DNA from: Clostridiaceae bacterium
Lineage (GTDB): Bacteria > Bacillota > Clostridia > DSM-8532
Direction of reading: 5' to 3'
Length of the DNA: 42,219 nucleotides
Assembly (NCBI GenBank): GCA_012521615.1
Contig: JAAYMA010000094.1
Span: 1-42,219 of the forward strand
Both the position numbers and the translations under genes were made by a program. Positions 1,665 through 33,178 of this stretch are shown piece by piece; the stretch's first letter is position 1, and the number at the start of each line of letters is the position of its first letter. The notes beneath the pieces were generated by a model. The model worked only from the letters and a program-made list of their open reading frames with translations, was not told where the DNA came from and ran no database searches.

Positions 1665-2218
1665 TTAAAACCGCCGGGTAAAGATATTGTCCCTTTTAAG
1701 CAGATCTTCGATTTTATTAAAACCCAGCTCTTCCAGAATTTCTATAACATAAGGATTGTCTATAGGCGTCTTGTATGTTGCAAGATTGGCATAATCATTA
1801 ACATGGACAGTGCCTTCCTTGTAAGGGATTATGGCCTTGGGGCCTCCTACACAGCCTCCTACACAGCCCATACCTTCAATAAAGTTGGCTTTTATTTTAC
1901 CTTCCATAATCTCCTTCAGCATCTGTTTACATGCTCTTGCCCCGTCGGCCTGTGCGCTGGTCAAAGGTATCTTTTATCTCTCTTTATTGCCGAAAAAAGG
2001 CAGGCCACCTGACAATCAGAAGGTCCCTCATCACTGCATTTACTGCATTCGCCTATATGCATGACAGCCGGATATTTTTCGGGATGGAGCAGACATTCCA
2101 GGTGGCGTCTGTTATACTCAGCATTGGTTTTGATATCGTTGATCTCTTCTTCCAGCGAATTGTTCAGGGAAGCCTTGACCAATCGATTATATAAATCTCT
2201 GAAAGTTTCCAAGTTCAA
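1665..2218 (-). pseudogene. FeFe-hydrogenase large-subunit-like gene with a large internal deletion
   Basis: Read on the minus strand. It starts with a TTG (2216-2218) behind a GGGGA Shine-Dalgarno. The first ~80 residues are the N-terminus of the ferredoxin-like/FeFe-hydrogenase C-terminal-domain proteins of Clostridia, including HLECLLHPEKYPAVMHIGECSKC and CQVACLFSAIKRDK (only parts quoted). The frame then closes at 1961-1963. A second frame immediately continues with the family's last ~95 residues: (K)IPLTSAQADG, then H-cluster motif L3 as EGMGCVGGCVGGP, then the usual C-terminus. The [4Fe-4S] ferredoxin motifs and H-cluster motifs L1 (TSCCP-like) and L2 are absent. Roughly 300 residues appear to be deleted, with a shift of frame at the junction near 1965-1975. 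The product cannot be a working hydrogenase. Confidence 0.8.
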
Positions 2219-2398
2219 ATCCCCTTTGTGAAATTTCGAGTATTTATATCTTTTAATATTATGGCCCTATTTTGGTAAAATATCTGTATATGCCGCTTGC
2301 ATCATAAAATATGGTCATGATTGTTAACATGATGTATAATTGAATTATTTGAAGGAAGATACTCTCCTATATCATATATGGAAAAGGTGGCATTGAAA

Positions 2399-24105: not shown

Positions 24106-25761
24106 ATGAAAAAGTCCAAAGTTTTTTTTGCCATAATAGTAGCAGTTGTAATGTTCAATATTATGGCCCCCCATTCCAAAGCCGAATTTACCTATCAGTT
24201 TGAGCCTGAAGCCTGGCAGCTGCACAGACTCGGTTTGTTTGCGGGAGCATCAGTTCATACCTTTAATCCTGATCTGGGTGCTCCTTTGACACGGCAGGTC
24301 GGAGTTACACTTCTGCTTAATTTTTTCGGGAAAAGATCCGATGTTGAGGCAATGACGCCATCTGAGATATCAGGTTTACTTTCAAAATACAAGGACCAGT
24401 CGGAAATTTCTGAATGGGCAAGACCGTATCTGGCTTATGCGGTGAAAACTGGAATGGTGGTAGGAACCTCAGGCGATACAATCAGTCCCAATAATGTACT
24501 GGATGGCTATTCCCTGGCTGCCTTGATTTTGCGGCAATTAGGTTATGTGGTCGACAGGACCAACTTCACCCGTTCCCTTGAACTGCTCAGTAAAGTGGGT
24601 GGGATAGCTGCAAATGAGGTTGGACTTTTTAATAAAAGCCGGCTTTTAAAAGACCATGGAGTCGGAATGATTTATACTGTTCTTTTTGCAAGTACTGCCG
24701 ATGGGCAGAAAGTAGCCGAGAAACTCATAGAATCCGGATATATTTCTGTTGATAAAGCCGTAGCATATAATCTTGCCAGCTATACCGGAGATGGGTGTGT
24801 TGAAATTAAAGACCCGAGTGCAGCAAAAAGACCTTCTTTGTACGATCAAATCTATTATGGAATTTATGAAGCTCTTGCAAACTTTGAAACTTATCTGAGC
24901 TTGCCTGAAAGTTCATATACCGACACTCCGCAAAAGGTATTCAAGCTTATTGAAAGATGTTTGCGGGAAAATCCTGAGCTCCTTTACTATTCAGGTTGCA
25001 TTTATTTTTCTGATGGCACTGTCAAGCTTCAATACAGCAAAGATTCCATTACCGGTATCAGGCACCAAAATGCGCTAAAGCAGAGAATCAAAGAGATAGT
25101 TACAAAAGTAGTTGCACCCGGGATGTCCGAATACGAAAAAGAATTGGCTTTACACGATTATTTGATAGAGAACTGTAAATATGACAGAAGGAGCTATGAA
25201 AACAAGGAGATACCTCAGGAATCATTCAATGCTTATGGAGCTTTGTGTCTGGGTACTGCTGTATGTGAAGGTTATGCAGAAGCTATGAAACTTCTGCTGA
25301 ACAGAGCAGGCGTTGAATGTCATATTGTTACCGGGGTCTCAAAGGGGGAGCGGCATGCCTGGAATATCGTGAAAATAGATGGTGAGACATATCATCTGGA
25401 TGCCACTTATAACGATCCGGTAATGCTTGATGGAAGGGATATAATCAGGTATCACTATTTCAATCTGAGTGACGAAGAAATTGAAACAGACCACGAATGG
25501 GACGAAACACTATATCCTTCATGTAATTCAACCAGGTACAACTATTATGTATATAATTCCCTTATAGTATCAGATACTCATGAGTTTATCAGAAGAGCTG
25601 TGGAGGAAGTCAATGCCGGAAACACAAAACTGACTTTCAGGATACAAAATGCTGAAGGTTTCGATTATGTTTCTGCCGTCAGGGCGGTTTGCAACAGGCT
25701 GTACAGAAAATGTTCCGTAACTTTTAACGAGGCATTTGGCATTGTGGATATGGTGTTCTGA
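24106..25761 (+). CDS. Exported transglutaminase-like protein with divergent SLH-type N-terminal region
   Basis: A 551-residue protein with a signal peptide at 1-26 (MAPHSKAEF). Residues ~35-150 resemble S-layer-homology repeats (WARPYLAYAVKTGMVVG with a downstream D-Y-SLAALILRQLGY). The middle is unassigned, and a transglutaminase-like (papain-fold) domain covers ~335-450. The catalytic triad can be read as C387 (GTAVCEGYAEA), H417 (ERHAWNIVKI) and D432 (YHLDATYNDP). Such proteins act outside the cell as peptidases, cross-linkers or wall-modifying enzymes; which applies here is unknown. The ribosome site is GAGGGA. It is terminated convergently with galE. Confidence 0.85.
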   Translation: MKKSKVFFAIIVAVVMFNIMAPHSKAEFTYQFEPEAWQLHRLGLFAGASVHTFNPDLGAPLTRQVGVTLLLNFFGKRSDVEAMTPSEISGLLSKYKDQSEISEWARPYLAYAVKTGMVVGTSGDTISPNNVLDGYSLAALILRQLGYVVDRTNFTRSLELLSKVGGIAANEVGLFNKSRLLKDHGVGMIYTVLFASTADGQKVAEKLIESGYISVDKAVAYNLASYTGDGCVEIKDPSAAKRPSLYDQIYYGIYEALANFETYLSLPESSYTDTPQKVFKLIERCLRENPELLYYSGCIYFSDGTVKLQYSKDSITGIRHQNALKQRIKEIVTKVVAPGMSEYEKELALHDYLIENCKYDRRSYENKEIPQESFNAYGALCLGTAVCEGYAEAMKLLLNRAGVECHIVTGVSKGERHAWNIVKIDGETYHLDATYNDPVMLDGRDIIRYHYFNLSDEEIETDHEWDETLYPSCNSTRYNYYVYNSLIVSDTHEFIRRAVEEVNAGNTKLTFRIQNAEGFDYVSAVRAVCNRLYRKCSVTFNEAFGIVDMVF

Positions 25762-25767
25762 TAAAAG

Positions 25768-25803
25768 AAAAACCGTTCCCGGAATGACGGTGGAACGGTT
25801 TTT
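25768..25803. terminator. Bidirectional terminator between the transglutaminase-like gene and galE
   Basis: AAAAACCGTTCC and GGAACGGTTTTT are exact reverse complements around a 12-base loop, giving a T-run on either strand between convergent genes. Confidence 0.92.
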
Positions 25804-25825
25804 CCTAATTCATTGAGAAAGTTAT

Positions 25826-26839
25826 TTAATCCTCATACCCGTTGGGGTTATTTGTCTGCCATCTCCATGCATCCTCGCACATTTCATCAAGACCTTTTTC
25901 AGCAACCCAGCCGAGTTCCTCACGGGCTTTTGACGGATCTGCATAACATATGGCGATATCTCCCGGCCTTCTGGGCATTATTTTGTATTTTATGGGCTTT
26001 CGGCATACCCTTTCAAAACTTCTTACCATTTCCAGCACACTGTAACCTTTGCCAGTACCAAGATTGTATGTCAGCACTCCCTTACCATTCTTAAGCTTTT
26101 CCAGAGCCTTAAGATGCCCTTTTGCCAGATCAACGACATGAATGTAATCCCTGACTCCCGTTCCGTCAGGGGTGTCATAGTCATTGCCATAAATGGGCAG
26201 AAAATCAAGCTTTCCTACAGCCACTTGTGTAATATACGGAACCAGATTGTTGGGTATTCCTATTGGATCTTCGCCTATTCTGCCGCTTTTATGTGCACCG
26301 ACAGGATTAAAGTATCTTAAAATCACAATGTGCCATAAATTATCGGACACATAAAGATCCCTGAGAATTTCCTCTATCATCAGTTTCGTCCTGCCATAGG
26401 GGTTTGTGGCTGAGAGGGGAAAGTCTTCCTTTATCGGTACAGTCTCCGGCTTGCCATACACAGTGGCTGAAGAACTGAATACCAGTTTTTTTACCCCATA
26501 TTTTCGCATGGTGTCGCATAATATCAAAGTTCCAACTATGTTGTTGTAGTAATACTCAAGGGGCTTGGATACTGATTCTCCCACGGCTTTAAGTCCTGCA
26601 AAATGTATGACTGAATCTATTTTTTCTTTCCTGAATATGTCTTCAACAGCATCCCTGTCCAATAAATCGGTTTGATAAAAAGTAAGTTTCCTGCCTGTTA
26701 TTTCTTCAACTCTGTCCAGTGAATTTTTTGAAGAATTAATAAGATTATCAATGACAACCACGTCATAGCCTTCATTCAGCAGTTCAACACAGGTGTGGCT
26801 TCCAATGTATCCTGCGCCTCCTGTAACTAAAACAGCCAT
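25826..26839 (-). CDS. galE: UDP-glucose 4-epimerase
   Basis: A 337-residue short-chain dehydrogenase/epimerase that interconverts UDP-glucose and UDP-galactose (often also the N-acetyl forms). It has the NAD-binding GGAGYIGS at 7-14, the catalytic serine/tyrosine region [10 protein letters not shown] and NPYGRTK (YxxxK), and the C-terminal [15 protein letters not shown] typical of GalE. The ribosome site is GGAGG. It is the third gene of a minus-strand operon, 34 bases after a sugar-kinase-like gene, so it probably works on the UDP-sugar made by its two upstream neighbours. Confidence 0.96.
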
Positions 26840-26873
26840 ATCTGTATACCTCCCTGATTTCCTATCATTGCCG

Positions 26874-27992
26874 TCATGGTCGATATTTGTTCACAATCTC
26901 ATGCATTATATCAAACTTTTCCTCCATATCGGACACAAGTTTGAACTGTGTGCGGCACCTGTCAAGATTATGATCTTCCCTGTGAATTCTGAAATATATG
27001 TCCCCTTCAAGGTAATCGGTGAGAAAACGGATGCCGCATTCATAGGTCATTAGTTTTGCACCCATAGGAAGCATATCAATTTCATTATCGGTCAGACTTC
27101 CCTCGGTGCCCTCAATAAATCCTTTGACATAGGCTTTGTATAACTCGAGACTGAAATTGACTTTTGACAAGTCTTTCTCGTCTTCGGCCCCTGTAGTGGC
27201 GCCGAATCTTATCGAATCACCGAAGTCATATACTGAAAGTCCCGGCATTATAGTATCGAGATCAATTATGCATAATGGTTTATTGGTATTTTTATCAAAG
27301 AGTATATTGTTAAGTTTCGTATCATTATGGGTAACTCTTAGAGGTAATTCGCCCTTTTTCTGCTTTTCCAGAAGTATACCGACTTCAGATTCCCGGGCGA
27401 GAGCAAATTCAATTTCTTTCTGAACATTTTTTACCCTGCCGCATATATCAGTATCTATGGCCCTTTTAAGGTTTTCGAAGCGGACTGGTGTGTTATGAAA
27501 GTCTTTTATGGTTTCGTACAGTGTATGGGCAGGATAATCTGATAGTAGTCTTTGAAAATTGCCAAAGGCAAAGGCGCTTAAATAAAAATCCTCAGCCCGA
27601 TTGACCAGATCGTAGCTCACGGTATTATCAATAAACAGATAACTTCTCCAGTAGCTGCCTATACTGTCTTTATAATAGCTTCTTCCGTCCCTGAGAGGTA
27701 CTATATTCAAAGTCTCTCTCTCAGGATCTCCGCCATTTTTTATTATTTTGCCCCTTAAAAAGGAAGTAATGCTGACAATATTACTCATAAGCTGTTCAGG
27801 GTTTTTGAAGACTTCATGATTAATTCGCTGGAGAAGATATTTTACTGTCGCGTTATTATTCAGCCTGCAGACCACAACAAAAGTGTCATTGATATGCCCG
27901 TTCCCATATCTGTAATATTCAACGGGCGTTCCCTGGTAGTCCATTTGACTGATAGCTTCCTCAATTTTTGCACAGGCTTGTTCTCTTGTCAT
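26874..27992 (-). CDS. Aminoglycoside-phosphotransferase-fold sugar kinase (N-acetylhexosamine 1-kinase-like)
   Basis: A 372-residue protein of the APH kinase fold, similar in layout to NahK. The N-terminal glycine-rich GNGHINDTF is followed by a lysine-containing strand (KYLLQRIN), the catalytic loop [13 protein letters not shown] and the metal-binding [10 protein letters not shown]. Anomeric phosphorylation of N-acetylhexosamine or another hexose is inferred from the family and from the flanking nucleotidyltransferase and galE, not from specificity residues. The ribosome site is GGGAGG. It lies 28 bases after the nucleotidyltransferase. Antibiotic resistance is improbable given the context. 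Confidence 0.82.
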
Positions 27993-28020
27993 TGTTTGCC
28001 CTCCCTGGATATGGTAATTG

Positions 28021-28941
28021 TTACTCCCAAAGTTTCTTCGGATAAATCCCTTTTTTTCTGAGCTCCGCTATAGCCGATACAACTAATTCCTTGTCTTCTT
28101 TGTATGTAACGCCGTACCATTTGTCCGGTGATTTCAGTACCCTGACGGTTGCCTTTTTCTCCTTGAGCAGTTCTCCGACCACATCGGGCAGGAAATACTC
28201 GCCTTTAAACGGATTTGTTGCCAGAGTATCTTCAAGAAATACAGGAAACCTGTTGTTCAGCTCATTTAATATACTTTTTGTAAACCCCCACAAATTCATT
28301 GATACAAGGGTGTCTTCCGGGATGAATGTCCAGTTGGTTCCTCCATCTTCGGTATATGCAGGCTGATTGTCTATCTTTTCAATTCTGGTTCTTTCCTTGA
28401 TATTTATCAGATAACCGTCAGGACTAACTGTACATACACCTCTTGCCACATGTCCATGATCTGTGAGTGTGTTCTTGATGGCGTATCCCACCATGCAATA
28501 CCGGTATTTGTCATCATCATGAGAATTTGAAAGCCAGTCATATATCAATTTGAAGGAATTATTTCCGTAATAGTCATCGGCATTTATAACCGCGAAGGAG
28601 CTGTTTAACTTGCCCATACAGCTTAAGACCGCATGACCGGTGCCCCAGGGCTTGACCCTTCCTTCCGGTTTTTTAAATCCTTCGGGAAGATTGTCAAGAT
28701 CCTGATATACGTATTCAACCTGAACATGTTTTTCAAGCCTGTCTCCTATTCGCTCCCTGAAATCTGCCTCAATATCCCGGTTGATAATGAACACAATCTT
28801 CTCAAAACCGGCTTGTACGGCATCATAAACAGAATAGTCTATTATCAGATGATTCATGTCATCAATCGGATCAATCTGTTTAAGCCCGCCATATCGGCTT
28901 CCGATACCTGCTGCCATAATAGCCAATACTGGTTTTTCCAT
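28021..28941 (-). CDS. Sugar-1-phosphate nucleotidyltransferase-like protein
   Basis: A 306-residue NTP-transferase-fold protein. The N-terminal signature LAIMAAGIGSRYGGLKQIDP is a nucleotide-binding loop, VINADDYYGNNSF carries the metal-binding Asp, and the TEDGGTNWTFIPEDTLVSMNLWGF block is characteristic of this clostridial group. It would transfer a nucleotidyl group (probably UMP) to a sugar 1-phosphate, such as the product of the kinase encoded next. It is the first gene of the operon, with AAGGAG upstream. The base and sugar specificity are unproven. Confidence 0.82.
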   Translation of the reverse strand: MEKPVLAIMAAGIGSRYGGLKQIDPIDDMNHLIIDYSVYDAVQAGFEKIVFIINRDIEADFRERIGDRLEKHVQVEYVYQDLDNLPEGFKKPEGRVKPWGTGHAVLSCMGKLNSSFAVINADDYYGNNSFKLIYDWLSNSHDDDKYRYCMVGYAIKNTLTDHGHVARGVCTVSPDGYLINIKERTRIEKIDNQPAYTEDGGTNWTFIPEDTLVSMNLWGFTKSILNELNNRFPVFLEDTLATNPFKGEYFLPDVVGELLKEKKATVRVLKSPDKWYGVTYKEDKELVVSAIAELRKKGIYPKKLWE

Positions 28942-29320
28942 CGGCTCAACTCCTTGATAAATTGGTTGGTATCCTGCGATTTGTCATCAGTTTAACTTCA
29001 TACCAATTATATACTGATTTAAAAGATAAATATTTATCGGAAATTGCATTTAATTTATACTTTTTTGGGAAACAGGGGATTTGACTGGACCATTGAAACA
29101 AACTGCGGCAGCTGGCCTCAATTTGCTGTCATTTGCAAAAATAAGGGCCATGAGAATACCCGCTTTAAATGGTTATAAAGTTGTAATAGCCGCAATTGCC
29201 GGTCAAGGCTTTATAAATTTATGTATTAAATTTGCACGATTATTTTGAATATATTATAATTATTTAAACAAAATTCATTAATAGTACATGATGAGTAATA
29301 TGGTAAAATAATCCTTTAAA
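28942..29320. other. Divergent intergenic region with a GC-richer island
   Basis: About 380 bases between the sugar operon and the AraC gene. The flanks are very AT-rich, but about 29070-29215 is clearly richer in G and C and is open for about 68 codons on the plus strand (to a TGA near 29248) with no ribosome site or good start. I recognise no protein or RNA family in it. Confidence 0.4.
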
Positions 29321-30256
29321 ATGGACAATGGGTATATTATGGGCAGTTATTATGAACCTCTGACTTTAAAACAGGAGATTGTCATTGAGAAAATTGTTAC
29401 AATTCACTATTTCGAATATACCAGTGATTTCTTTTTTCCCGGAGAACTGCATGATTTCTGGGAATTTCTGTTCGTGGACAAGGGAGAAATCGATGTAGTC
29501 GCCGATACAAAATCATTTACATTAAAAAAGGGCGAACTGATTTTTCATAAGCCAATGGAGTTTCATAGCCTTAAGGCTAATGGGGTTATAGCCCCTAACC
29601 TGGTTGTAATGGCTTTTGCATGCAATAGTCCTGCCATGAAGTTCTTTGAAGATAAGATTCTTCGTGTAGGTGACGATGAACGCAATATAATGGCGGATAT
29701 TATCAGCGAAGCCAGGAATGCATTTATATCGCCTCTTGATGATCCAAATCTCAAGAAACTTGAGAGAAACGAAAGCAATCCACTGCTCGGAAGTGAACAG
29801 ATTATAAAAATCAGTCTTGAAAAAATGCTTATACAGATGCTACGGAAAGGTGAAAAAAAAGAAAATTACAAAAAAATCACTTCTTCAATAAAAGAAAAAG
29901 CCGAACAGGAAATTTTCAACAAAATCATACTGTATTTAGAAGACCATATCAGTGAGCAAATAAGCGTAAAGGAACTGTGCAGGATATTCAATATAAGTTA
30001 TTCTTATCTTCAGAAGCTCTTCAAGAAAAAAACGGGCGGGGGGGTAGTAGAGTATTTTGGCAGAATTAAAATCGAAAAAGCAAAGGAATACATAAGGGAA
30101 AAAACGTACAATTTCACAGAAATAGCCCAAATGTTGGGGTACAGTTCAATACATTATTTTTCCCGCTGTTTTAAAGCAGTTACAGGAATGACCCCAACCG
30201 AATATGCCACTTCAGTAAAAATCCGATCAGAAAATCTCCGGGAATTTTGGATATAG
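29321..30256 (+). CDS. AraC-family transcriptional regulator with cupin sensor domain
   Basis: A 311-residue regulator. The N-terminal half is a cupin-like ligand domain (FFFPGELHDFWEFLFVDKG; KKGELIFHKPMEFHSL). The C-terminal ~100 residues are two helix-turn-helix units: ISVKELCRIFNISYSYLQKLFKKKT and NFTEIAQMLGYSSIHYFSR followed by CFKAVTGMTPTEYA. Such proteins commonly control sugar uptake and use. There is no good ribosome site at ATG 29321; the in-frame ATG at 29339 is an alternative. It lies divergent from the sugar-activation operon, which is a possible target. Confidence 0.9.
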   Translation: MDNGYIMGSYYEPLTLKQEIVIEKIVTIHYFEYTSDFFFPGELHDFWEFLFVDKGEIDVVADTKSFTLKKGELIFHKPMEFHSLKANGVIAPNLVVMAFACNSPAMKFFEDKILRVGDDERNIMADIISEARNAFISPLDDPNLKKLERNESNPLLGSEQIIKISLEKMLIQMLRKGEKKENYKKITSSIKEKAEQEIFNKIILYLEDHISEQISVKELCRIFNISYSYLQKLFKKKTGGGVVEYFGRIKIEKAKEYIREKTYNFTEIAQMLGYSSIHYFSRCFKAVTGMTPTEYATSVKIRSENLREFWI

Positions 30257-30272
30257 AATCATAAATCAGTAT

Positions 30273-30703
30273 TCATCGTTTGCTTTTTTCAAGCATTTCT
30301 TTTCTGTACTCCAACGGTGTTTGCCCGACTGCTTTCTTGAATGTTTGAGAGAAATACGACTGGGATGAAAAACCTACAATGCTTGCAATCTGAAGGACCG
30401 AGAAATTGGTTGTTTCAAGAAGGCGCTTGCTTTCCTCTATTCTTTTCTGATTCAGATGATGGGAGGGATACCATAACACTCGTTGAAGCTGTGGGACAAA
30501 TAATATTTGTTCAAATGGCAGAAGGCCGCCAGAGTATCCAAAGTAATATCATCCTTGAAATTTTTGTCTATGTATTCCTTTACGCGTTTGCATTCATAAT
30601 TGCTTCTGACATATGAAGTGGTTGTCAGATCATATGTTATGTGTTTCTTGATTAATCTCAGGAAAATGTCGAGCAGATTCTGACAGGCAGCTTTCGGCTG
30701 TTT
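30273..30703 (-). pseudogene. Truncated and frameshifted AraC-family regulator
   Basis: Read on the minus strand, 30703 to ~30463 encodes the end of an AraC sensor domain and the first helix-turn-helix (NLLDIFLRLIKKH; LDTLAAFCHLNKYYLSHSF; NECYGIPPI). The frame then hits TGA. The reading resumes in another frame with HLNQKRIEESKRLLETTNFS and the second helix-turn-helix, ending GQTPLEYRKEM. One lost base between PI and the YLNQ-like position explains the shift. The N-terminal cupin domain (~150 residues) is missing altogether; upstream of 30703 the sequence switches into the chemoreceptor's coding region. It is not functional. Confidence 0.85.
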
Positions 30704-30732
30704 TTACATCCATAAGTATTCGTAAAAAGATT

Positions 30733-32694
30733 ATGACCGCATTTATCGTTCCGGTTATGCTGATTGTTTTTCTGGGCTTGTTTTCCTACAGGATGGCAGC
30801 TTCAGAAATAAAAAAACAGGCCGTAATCTCTGCTGAAACACTTGTGAGGGGACAAGGAGAATACCTCAGTTTACTCGCTTCCAGCATCAGAAACGTTTCT
30901 GACCAGATTATCACAAACAGCGACATAAGCAGGTATTTCAGCAATATTGACAAAGGTTTGATGGGGTCGGAGGCTTTCAGTCTGTCAAACACTATAAACA
31001 AAAGCCTTAATTCAATAATTATCGGAAATGATAATATCAGGTCTATTACAATAATAGGCAGGACTAAAGCAATAAGTACAGACTCAAACATTGATGCAAA
31101 GCTTCTTTCTGAAATTGATACCACAAGAGTTTATCAGCTGGCTGCTGAGGCAGAAGGCAGCCCGGTATGGGTTGGACGGGCAGAGTTTATGCCTGAAAGT
31201 ACACTGATATGTGCCCGGGTACTAAAGAATAACCTGCAAAATGATGTAGCCGGACTCATGCTGATTGATATAAAGCCTGAAATTATCCAGGGTTTGCTGG
31301 ACAATCTGAGACTTGGGGAAAGAAGCAGTCCTCATCTGATTATTGACGGAGTTGATCTTGGTGACGGGTATCTTGTTGAAAACAGTTATTATCAAAGAAT
31401 ACTGTCTGCCGGGGATTTCTTCGGATCGGATATTATAGCACACAATGGCAATAATCACCTGATAGTGTATAGCAAGCCAATGGATAACAGTTTTATATTG
31501 GCAACAATGCTTCCGTTAAAAGACCTTTTGTCGGGATCGTACAGTATTCTTGTCATAACACTGGCTATAATGATACTTGCTGTTGCCGTCTCAGTATGTA
31601 CGGCTGTGACTATTTCACGGAATATGGCTGCCACCATAAAAATCATTTCCCACTCGGCTGAGCAGGCTGCCCGGGGAGATCTTACCACAATTCCGACAAC
31701 AAAGCGGCGTGATGAATTGGGCAAACTTACCGTAAGTATAGGCATTATGATAGAGAAAATGCGTGAACTTATAGGCTGGACTGCAATAAGTGCCCGAAAT
31801 GTTGCAGAGACTTCCGTTGAATTGTCAGTGTCAACAAAGGATATTGTCGTTTTGTCAGAAAATATTACTAAAACCATGGATGAGATTGCAACAGGCGCAG
31901 GGCAGCAGGCACTGGATGCAGAAAACGGATACAATAAAGTTATGGTCCTTGCCGACAAAATCAGGGATGTAAGAGACAATGCAATGCATATGAACGATAT
32001 GTCTGTCAAAACAATGGAACTAACGGATTTAGGTCAATCAGCCATAAAAAACCTTGAGTCGAAAACAAAGCAGACAAATTCCATTGTGCAGGATATTTTG
32101 AATGATATAAACGCTCTTGACAACCAGTCTAAAATAATCGGCCAGATTATAAAGGTCATTACCAAAATATCCGATCAGACAAATCTTCTTGCTTTAAATG
32201 CAGCAATTGAAGCTTCAAAAGCGGGAAAGACGGGATACGGATTTTCAGTTTTGGCGGACGAAATCCGTAAACTTGCTGAACAGACCAAAATGTCAGCACA
32301 GGAAATATTCGGCATAATGAATGTGGTAAGAAAGCAGACACAAGAGACTGTCAGAAAAGCCCGGTTGACTGAAGAAATACTTGCTTCCCAGAATGTGGCG
32401 CTTCATAAGGCAATTACCTCATTCAATTCAGTCTCGGAAGCACTTCAGGATTTTGTTACCAGACTTATGAATGTTTTGGAAATGATCGGTCAGATTGATA
32501 CTTACAAAAGTGAAGTAATTAATTCCATACAGAACATTTCGAGTGTAACTGAACAAACGGCTGCTGCCACACAAGCTGTGAATTCTTCGGTTGATCTTCA
32601 GCTGTCCAAATTACAGATGCTGCTTACCGAAGCAGAAAAGCTCAAAGATGGGTCACAAAAACTTAATGAGGCCATCAAAAAATTCAAAGTTTAG
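30733..32694 (+). CDS. Methyl-accepting chemotaxis protein with truncated start region
   Basis: A 653-residue chemoreceptor. TM1 is at ~4-20, a Cache-like periplasmic-type sensor domain at ~25-265, TM2 at ~275-297, HAMP at ~298-350 and the signalling coiled coil after that. The conserved CheA/CheW contact tip reads [20 protein letters not shown], followed by [16 protein letters not shown]. The frame is open upstream, and [10 protein letters not shown] begins before the ATG at 30733, matching how these proteins usually start (M-x-SIRKK). That ATG has no Shine-Dalgarno. The natural start codon and ribosome site seem to have been lost with the adjoining AraC sequence. The protein body itself is intact. 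Confidence 0.85.
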
Positions 32695-32726
32695 CTGCTG
32701 ATTATTCGAGAAAAGTTGACAATCAG

Positions 32727-32750
32727 ACAGGGAAAAAGACATATCCCTGT
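32727..32750. repeat. Short perfect inverted repeat after the chemoreceptor gene
   Basis: ACAGGGA and TCCCTGT are separated by ten bases. No T-run follows, so its use as a terminator is doubtful. Confidence 0.4.
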
Positions 32751-32851
32751 ATTCAAACTTATAAAAATGAATTTTTTACTGGAACAATGTAGAGAATTTG
32801 GTACCATGAAATACTTCAGCAACATATCTAAAAATCTAAGCAATAATGATA

Positions 32852-32881
32852 TTGAATTAGTGTAGTTCTAATAAATATAAT
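32852..32881 (+). promoter_or_regulatory. Near-consensus sigma-A promoter ahead of a gene remnant
   Basis: TTGAAT (32852-32857) and TATAAT (32876-32881) are 18 bases apart. A strong AAAGGAGG follows at 32904-32911, then ATG at 32920, yet no intact gene comes after. Confidence 0.65.
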
Positions 32882-32919
32882 CAAAATAAAGAACAAGAAT
32901 TATAAAGGAGGATATGTTC

Positions 32920-33049
32920 ATGAAGAAAATATTATGGTTACACAGAGACGGATATCTATTGGGAAAAAGCAAAAAAAGCAGACGTGAACAAGGACGGACA
33001 GGTCAATATTGAGGATATGACGATGATAGCTCTGACTTTAATCAGATAA
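32920..33049 (+). pseudogene. Remnant of a dockerin/EF-hand-containing gene
   Basis: After AAAGGAGG and ATG 32920, the initial frame gives only 30 unremarkable codons. In the next frame, from about 32927 to the TAA at 33047-33049, the translation reads YWEKAKKADVNKDG followed by QVNIEDMTMIALTLIR. The D-V-N-K-D-G-Q-V-N-I-E-D segment is a clean calcium-binding EF-hand/type I dockerin repeat with Asp/Asn at the coordinating positions. Only one repeat is present and no N-terminal secreted domain exists, so most of the parent gene is missing. A cellulosomal or other secreted origin is inferred. Confidence 0.65.
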
Positions 33050-33089
33050 TCATGAATGAACAGATAAGCATTGAAATTGCAATTTTTTC

Positions 33090-33122
33090 AGCGGGCCGCC
33101 CGTTTTTTCCGGACAGCCCGCT
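33090..33122. terminator. GC-rich hairpin before smc
   Basis: AGCGGGC pairs with GCCCGCT; an inner GGGC-C-GCCC runs into six T, so alternative structures exist. It probably terminates transcription of the remnant upstream. Confidence 0.6.
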
Positions 33123-33150
33123 TTGCGTTATCTGCGTTTTTCCTTTATAT

Positions 33151-33178
33151 TTGCTTAATTCAAGTTCTGTGATAAAAT
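33151..33178 (+). promoter_or_regulatory. Predicted smc promoter
   Basis: TTGCTT (33151-33156) and TAAAAT (33173-33178) are 16 bases apart and 39 bases before the smc start. Confidence 0.45.

Follow-up and report, generated by a model that had tools for sequence, protein, structure and literature searches.

A broken dockerin-tailed gene upstream of smc in a Clostridiaceae bacterium, probably the product of an internal deletion

One contig of the Clostridiaceae bacterium assembly GCA_012521615.1 (JAAYMA010000094.1, positions 1 to 42,219, the whole of which is called the window here) carries, upstream of smc, what is very probably a pseudogene, left by an internal deletion in the gene of a secreted multidomain enzyme that ended in a type I dockerin. 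The C-terminal end and the broken reading frame can be seen directly, and we infer that the 5' end, with its start signals, was part of the same gene. The original prediction, of a secreted gene that lost its middle and kept both termini, thus stands as the most likely reading, borne out for the tail and the broken frame and conditional for the origin of the 5' end. The parent may have been a glycoside hydrolase, or another secreted enzyme of that kind, with a cohesin of its own, as is the arrangement in congeners. The remnant and its signals comprise:

32852-32857 and 32876-32881, plus strand: sigma-A-like promoter, TTGAAT and TATAAT with a spacer of 18, 10/12 matches
32904-32911, plus strand: ribosome-binding site, AAAGGAGG
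32920-33012, plus strand: start-codon frame, ATG at 32920-32922, 30 codons, TGA at 33010-33012
32926-32940 (approximate), plus strand: putative deletion junction; dockerin homology starts at YYG, 32930
32930-33049, plus strand, +1 frame: second half of a type I dockerin (linker, calcium-binding loop, last helix) and its stop
33090-33108, plus strand: possible intrinsic terminator of the dead gene, AGCGGG-CCG-CCCGTT then T, -6.8 kcal/mol, z -1.3

The dockerin lies in the +1 frame relative to the ATG. This frame opens just past a TGA that overlaps the ATG, reads RKYYGYTETDIYWEKAKKADVNKDGQVNIEDMTMIALTLIR from 32924 to 33049, and ends in a TAA at 33047-33049. Within it, ADVNKDGQVNIED occupies positions 32978-33016, and the calcium loop DVNKDGQVNIED retains D1, N3, D5, N9, and D12. 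The earlier description of a calcium-binding repeat that survives in another frame and ends at a stop was therefore accurate, and comparison of the out-of-frame peptide with dockerin families gave a clear dockerin-like match. A profile of ten dockerin tails from relatives, built with the remnant sequence left out, gave the remnant 54.8 bits and the runner-up frame in the window 3.1 bits. With the same profile, 2000 dinucleotide-shuffled versions of the region reached 9.4 bits at most, placing the remnant far beyond chance. When a full-length dockerin profile was run against the whole genome it found a single place, the remnant itself (E 2.1e-11, model positions 22-57 of 60).

Compared with type I dockerins (PF00404) of the subtype that ends enzymes in congeners and Paenibacillus, often behind a FIVAR domain, the remnant shares the DxNxDGxxxxxD second repeat, the YYG...W...AK.AD pattern, and the C-terminal position with a stop directly after. 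It differs in having just one of the dockerin's two tandem calcium-binding repeats, in occupying a different frame from the only good start, and in scoring below the curated cut-off for Pfam Dockerin_1 (21.7 bits against 22.9, E 2.4e-4, profile positions 33-52 of 57), the last because half of the domain alone remains. The lost first repeat has the consensus GDLNNDGxIDxGDLAIxAY in full-length dockerins, and everything else upstream of the second half is gone as well. Dockerin tails of congeners show 38-52% identity to the remnant, with E values down to 1e-7 in one genome, and nearly all of these alignments start at YYG. No ATG, GTG, or TTG precedes the domain in the tail frame; with no in-frame start, and displaced by +1 relative to the ATG, the half-dockerin is not in a translated protein.

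The promoter, AAAGGAGG, and the ATG were all located where the original prediction had put them. Taken alone, the promoter is weak evidence, as the region has three promoter-like sites and shuffled versions of it have 2.5 +/- 1.3. Of the three, TTGAAT-18-TATAAT ranks first, and the sole occurrence of TTGANN-16/18-TATAAT in the 42-kb window is this one, at 32852-32881. The ribosome site is a good one, since AGGAGG-N5-10-ATG is found just four times in the window. The start-codon frame translates to MKKILWLHRDGYLLGKSKKSRREQGRTGQY before its TGA and, as had been claimed, is useless after those 30 codons; its first 3-6 codons probably represent the start of a lost signal peptide (MKKILW), with out-of-frame reading from there on. 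As a terminator, the hairpin at 33090-33108 is suggestive only, and a scan of the region did not pick it up.

In the proposed deletion, one breakpoint would lie just past the ATG, no further than 3-6 codons into the signal peptide, and the other in mid-dockerin, directly ahead of the YYG that leads into the second calcium-binding repeat. Joining the two would shift the tail by one base relative to the ATG, and ribosomes loading on the surviving start would then yield a meaningless 30-residue peptide. The junction is placed at about 32926-32940 because the R-K before YYG is unlike the A-Y of relatives. The tail is stop-free over 39 codons, and this together with the retention of the calcium-loop residues suggests that the deletion may be recent. 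This is ordinary decay of a known domain family. No intact allele turned up in a search of 60 relatives with the intergenic DNA, at the congener loci, or in a scan of named genomes, and for this reason we infer both that a deletion took place and what the parent was.

Several proteins in congeners end in tails that match the remnant. They include a GH3-Coh-FIVAR-Doc protein of 1863 aa, a GH43-Coh-FIVAR-Doc protein of 1737 aa, and metallophosphatase-like proteins with a Coh-Doc arrangement, and a GH10-Doc enzyme is found in another genus of the family. One congener, G001, has 11 dockerins and 11 cohesins, mostly in reading frames that carry both. At loci of G001 and G002 (L107, L108, L103, and L106), cohesin and dockerin lie on one chain, up to 11 per genome, with no evident scaffoldin. 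Such proteins resemble enzymes of Clostridium perfringens that have a single X82 cohesin, a dockerin, or both, and that associate in pairs, as described in PMC12997984 with reference to Adams et al. There, each cohesin is part of an enzyme, and the complexes it supports are pairwise and not scaffoldin-based (PMC12997984). The congeners likewise combine cohesin and dockerin on the same secreted enzyme, often with FIVAR between, whereas here the dockerin tail alone is left and the cohesin and FIVAR would have belonged to the presumed parent.

Scanning named genomes with the dockerin-tail alignment returned 27 loci, largely from Paenibacillus and also from clostridial MAGs, and several of the Paenibacillus tails are preceded by a stretch that, judged by eye, is FIVAR-like. 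None of the 27 was close enough to be the parent enzyme; identities were 35-68% along the tail or a portion of it. A separate oddity among the dockerin-bearing frames is one of 532 aa (L102:1290-2885) that combines a response-regulator receiver domain with FIVAR and a C-terminal dockerin, a strange pairing for a cytoplasmic regulator, which may result from a deletion that fused two genes or from an assembly join.

The lost gene had also been thought possibly cellulosomal, and this part of the prediction did not survive a survey of the genome. What the remnant has in common with cellulosomes, which combine a many-cohesin scaffoldin with dockerin enzymes, is the dockerin domain. However, the genome has no scaffoldin with several cohesins and no FIVAR domain, and the whole-genome profile search found no second dockerin; a cellulosome component was accordingly rejected. 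The only cohesin-like domain in the genome is borderline and lies in a 1096-aa phosphodiester-glycosidase-like protein. Several congeners, some of them dockerin-free, have weak cohesin-like matches in frames that are about 1100 aa long. The tails of relatives, for their part, sit on enzymes with a single cohesin of their own.

The remnant is the last element of a block of DNA that sets this genome apart from its relatives, and the block contains a second broken gene:

25806-33150, no strand assigned: block of about 7.3 kb that separates the transglutaminase/SLH gene from smc, present there in this genome alone
30269-30703, minus strand: broken AraC-family regulator, its HTH region in two pieces and frames, N-terminal part missing

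Among 11 congeners, all with little DNA upstream of smc, the gene next to smc is the transglutaminase/SLH gene (24106-25761 in the window) in nine and citrate synthase in two, and none of the 11 has a dockerin gene beside smc. On its minus strand the block carries a galE-like epimerase, an APH-family gene that from its context may be hexosamine-kinase-like, and a nucleotidyltransferase. The rest consists of an AraC regulator, the broken AraC gene, a chemoreceptor, and the remnant, with the broken copy sitting between the intact AraC gene and the chemoreceptor. A 91-aa ORF on the plus strand (30341-30616) overlaps the broken AraC gene and is probably spurious. Nearest to the sugar-nucleotide genes of the block is a cluster in G008 and G007, where the sugar genes and an AraC gene lie together at another place and in a different order, the sugar genes being 77-79% identical in DNA. 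A parent enzyme that was secreted and degraded glycans would be in keeping with a cluster for sugar use.

The likely smc promoter, TGTGATAAAAT at 33168-33178, is common to the nearest relatives, which puts the right end of the block before it. The only repeat found near both block ends is the 9-base GTTTTTCCT, at 25798 and 33136, which may be chance. Searching the intergenic DNA against 60 relatives gave four matches and no more, all short and weak (30-60 bases at 78-90%, E about 1e-4), and an orthologous region for the intergenic stretch was found in none of the 60.

The region is at the margin of a block that relatives lack, and the start could belong to another dead or short gene, the dockerin tail having arrived separately, for example when the block was inserted. 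Such a pairing of two unrelated remnants is unlikely, though: the start and the first homologous codon are 10 bases apart on one strand, with the start in front; the start is signal-peptide-like, as an internal deletion of one gene predicts; and it fits no other gene in 32 family genomes. An assembly artefact, either the omission of the central part of an intact gene or a wrong join of two stretches, is less probable still. The draft status of the genome (133 contigs) leaves room for such errors, but the assembly is 99.94% complete, the missing part is nowhere else within it (there being no FIVAR, no other dockerin, and no enzyme with a good cohesin), and the dockerin tail is not repeated in the genome.

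The good ribosome site and promoter-like sequence would also suit a real small gene or leader, with a function residing in the 30-codon frame or in a short transcript. A conserved small protein in the first frame had been named as the finding that would speak against a remnant; the 30-residue frame has no homologue in the 32 family genomes, and the region is missing upstream of smc in relatives. Rfam gave one chance match, far below its gathering score, and hence no RNA family. A functional small gene is thus very improbable. That the half-dockerin is still made, through a +1 slip near AAGAAAAT with the help of the good ribosome site, and binds calcium or the cohesin on enzymes of other cells, is barely credible.

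Read as a gene broken by deletion, the remnant offers a clear case of a dockerin-tailed gene dying by apparent internal deletion. With it, the last dockerin that can be detected disappeared from a lineage with sister species that retain up to 11, and the case helps to trace the patchy gain and loss of dockerin and cohesin modules among clostridia outside cellulosomes. The wider meaning of a half-dockerin pseudogene is little.

The original prediction also likened this deletion to that in a hydrogenase remnant elsewhere in the window (1668-2266, minus strand). There, the domain core is missing, a cysteine-containing piece of about 100 residues lies upstream in one frame, and a C-terminal Fe-hydrogenase piece (PF02906, positions 205-245 of 245, 44.5 bits) lies in another. 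With its pieces in different frames, a similar style of deletion is plausible.
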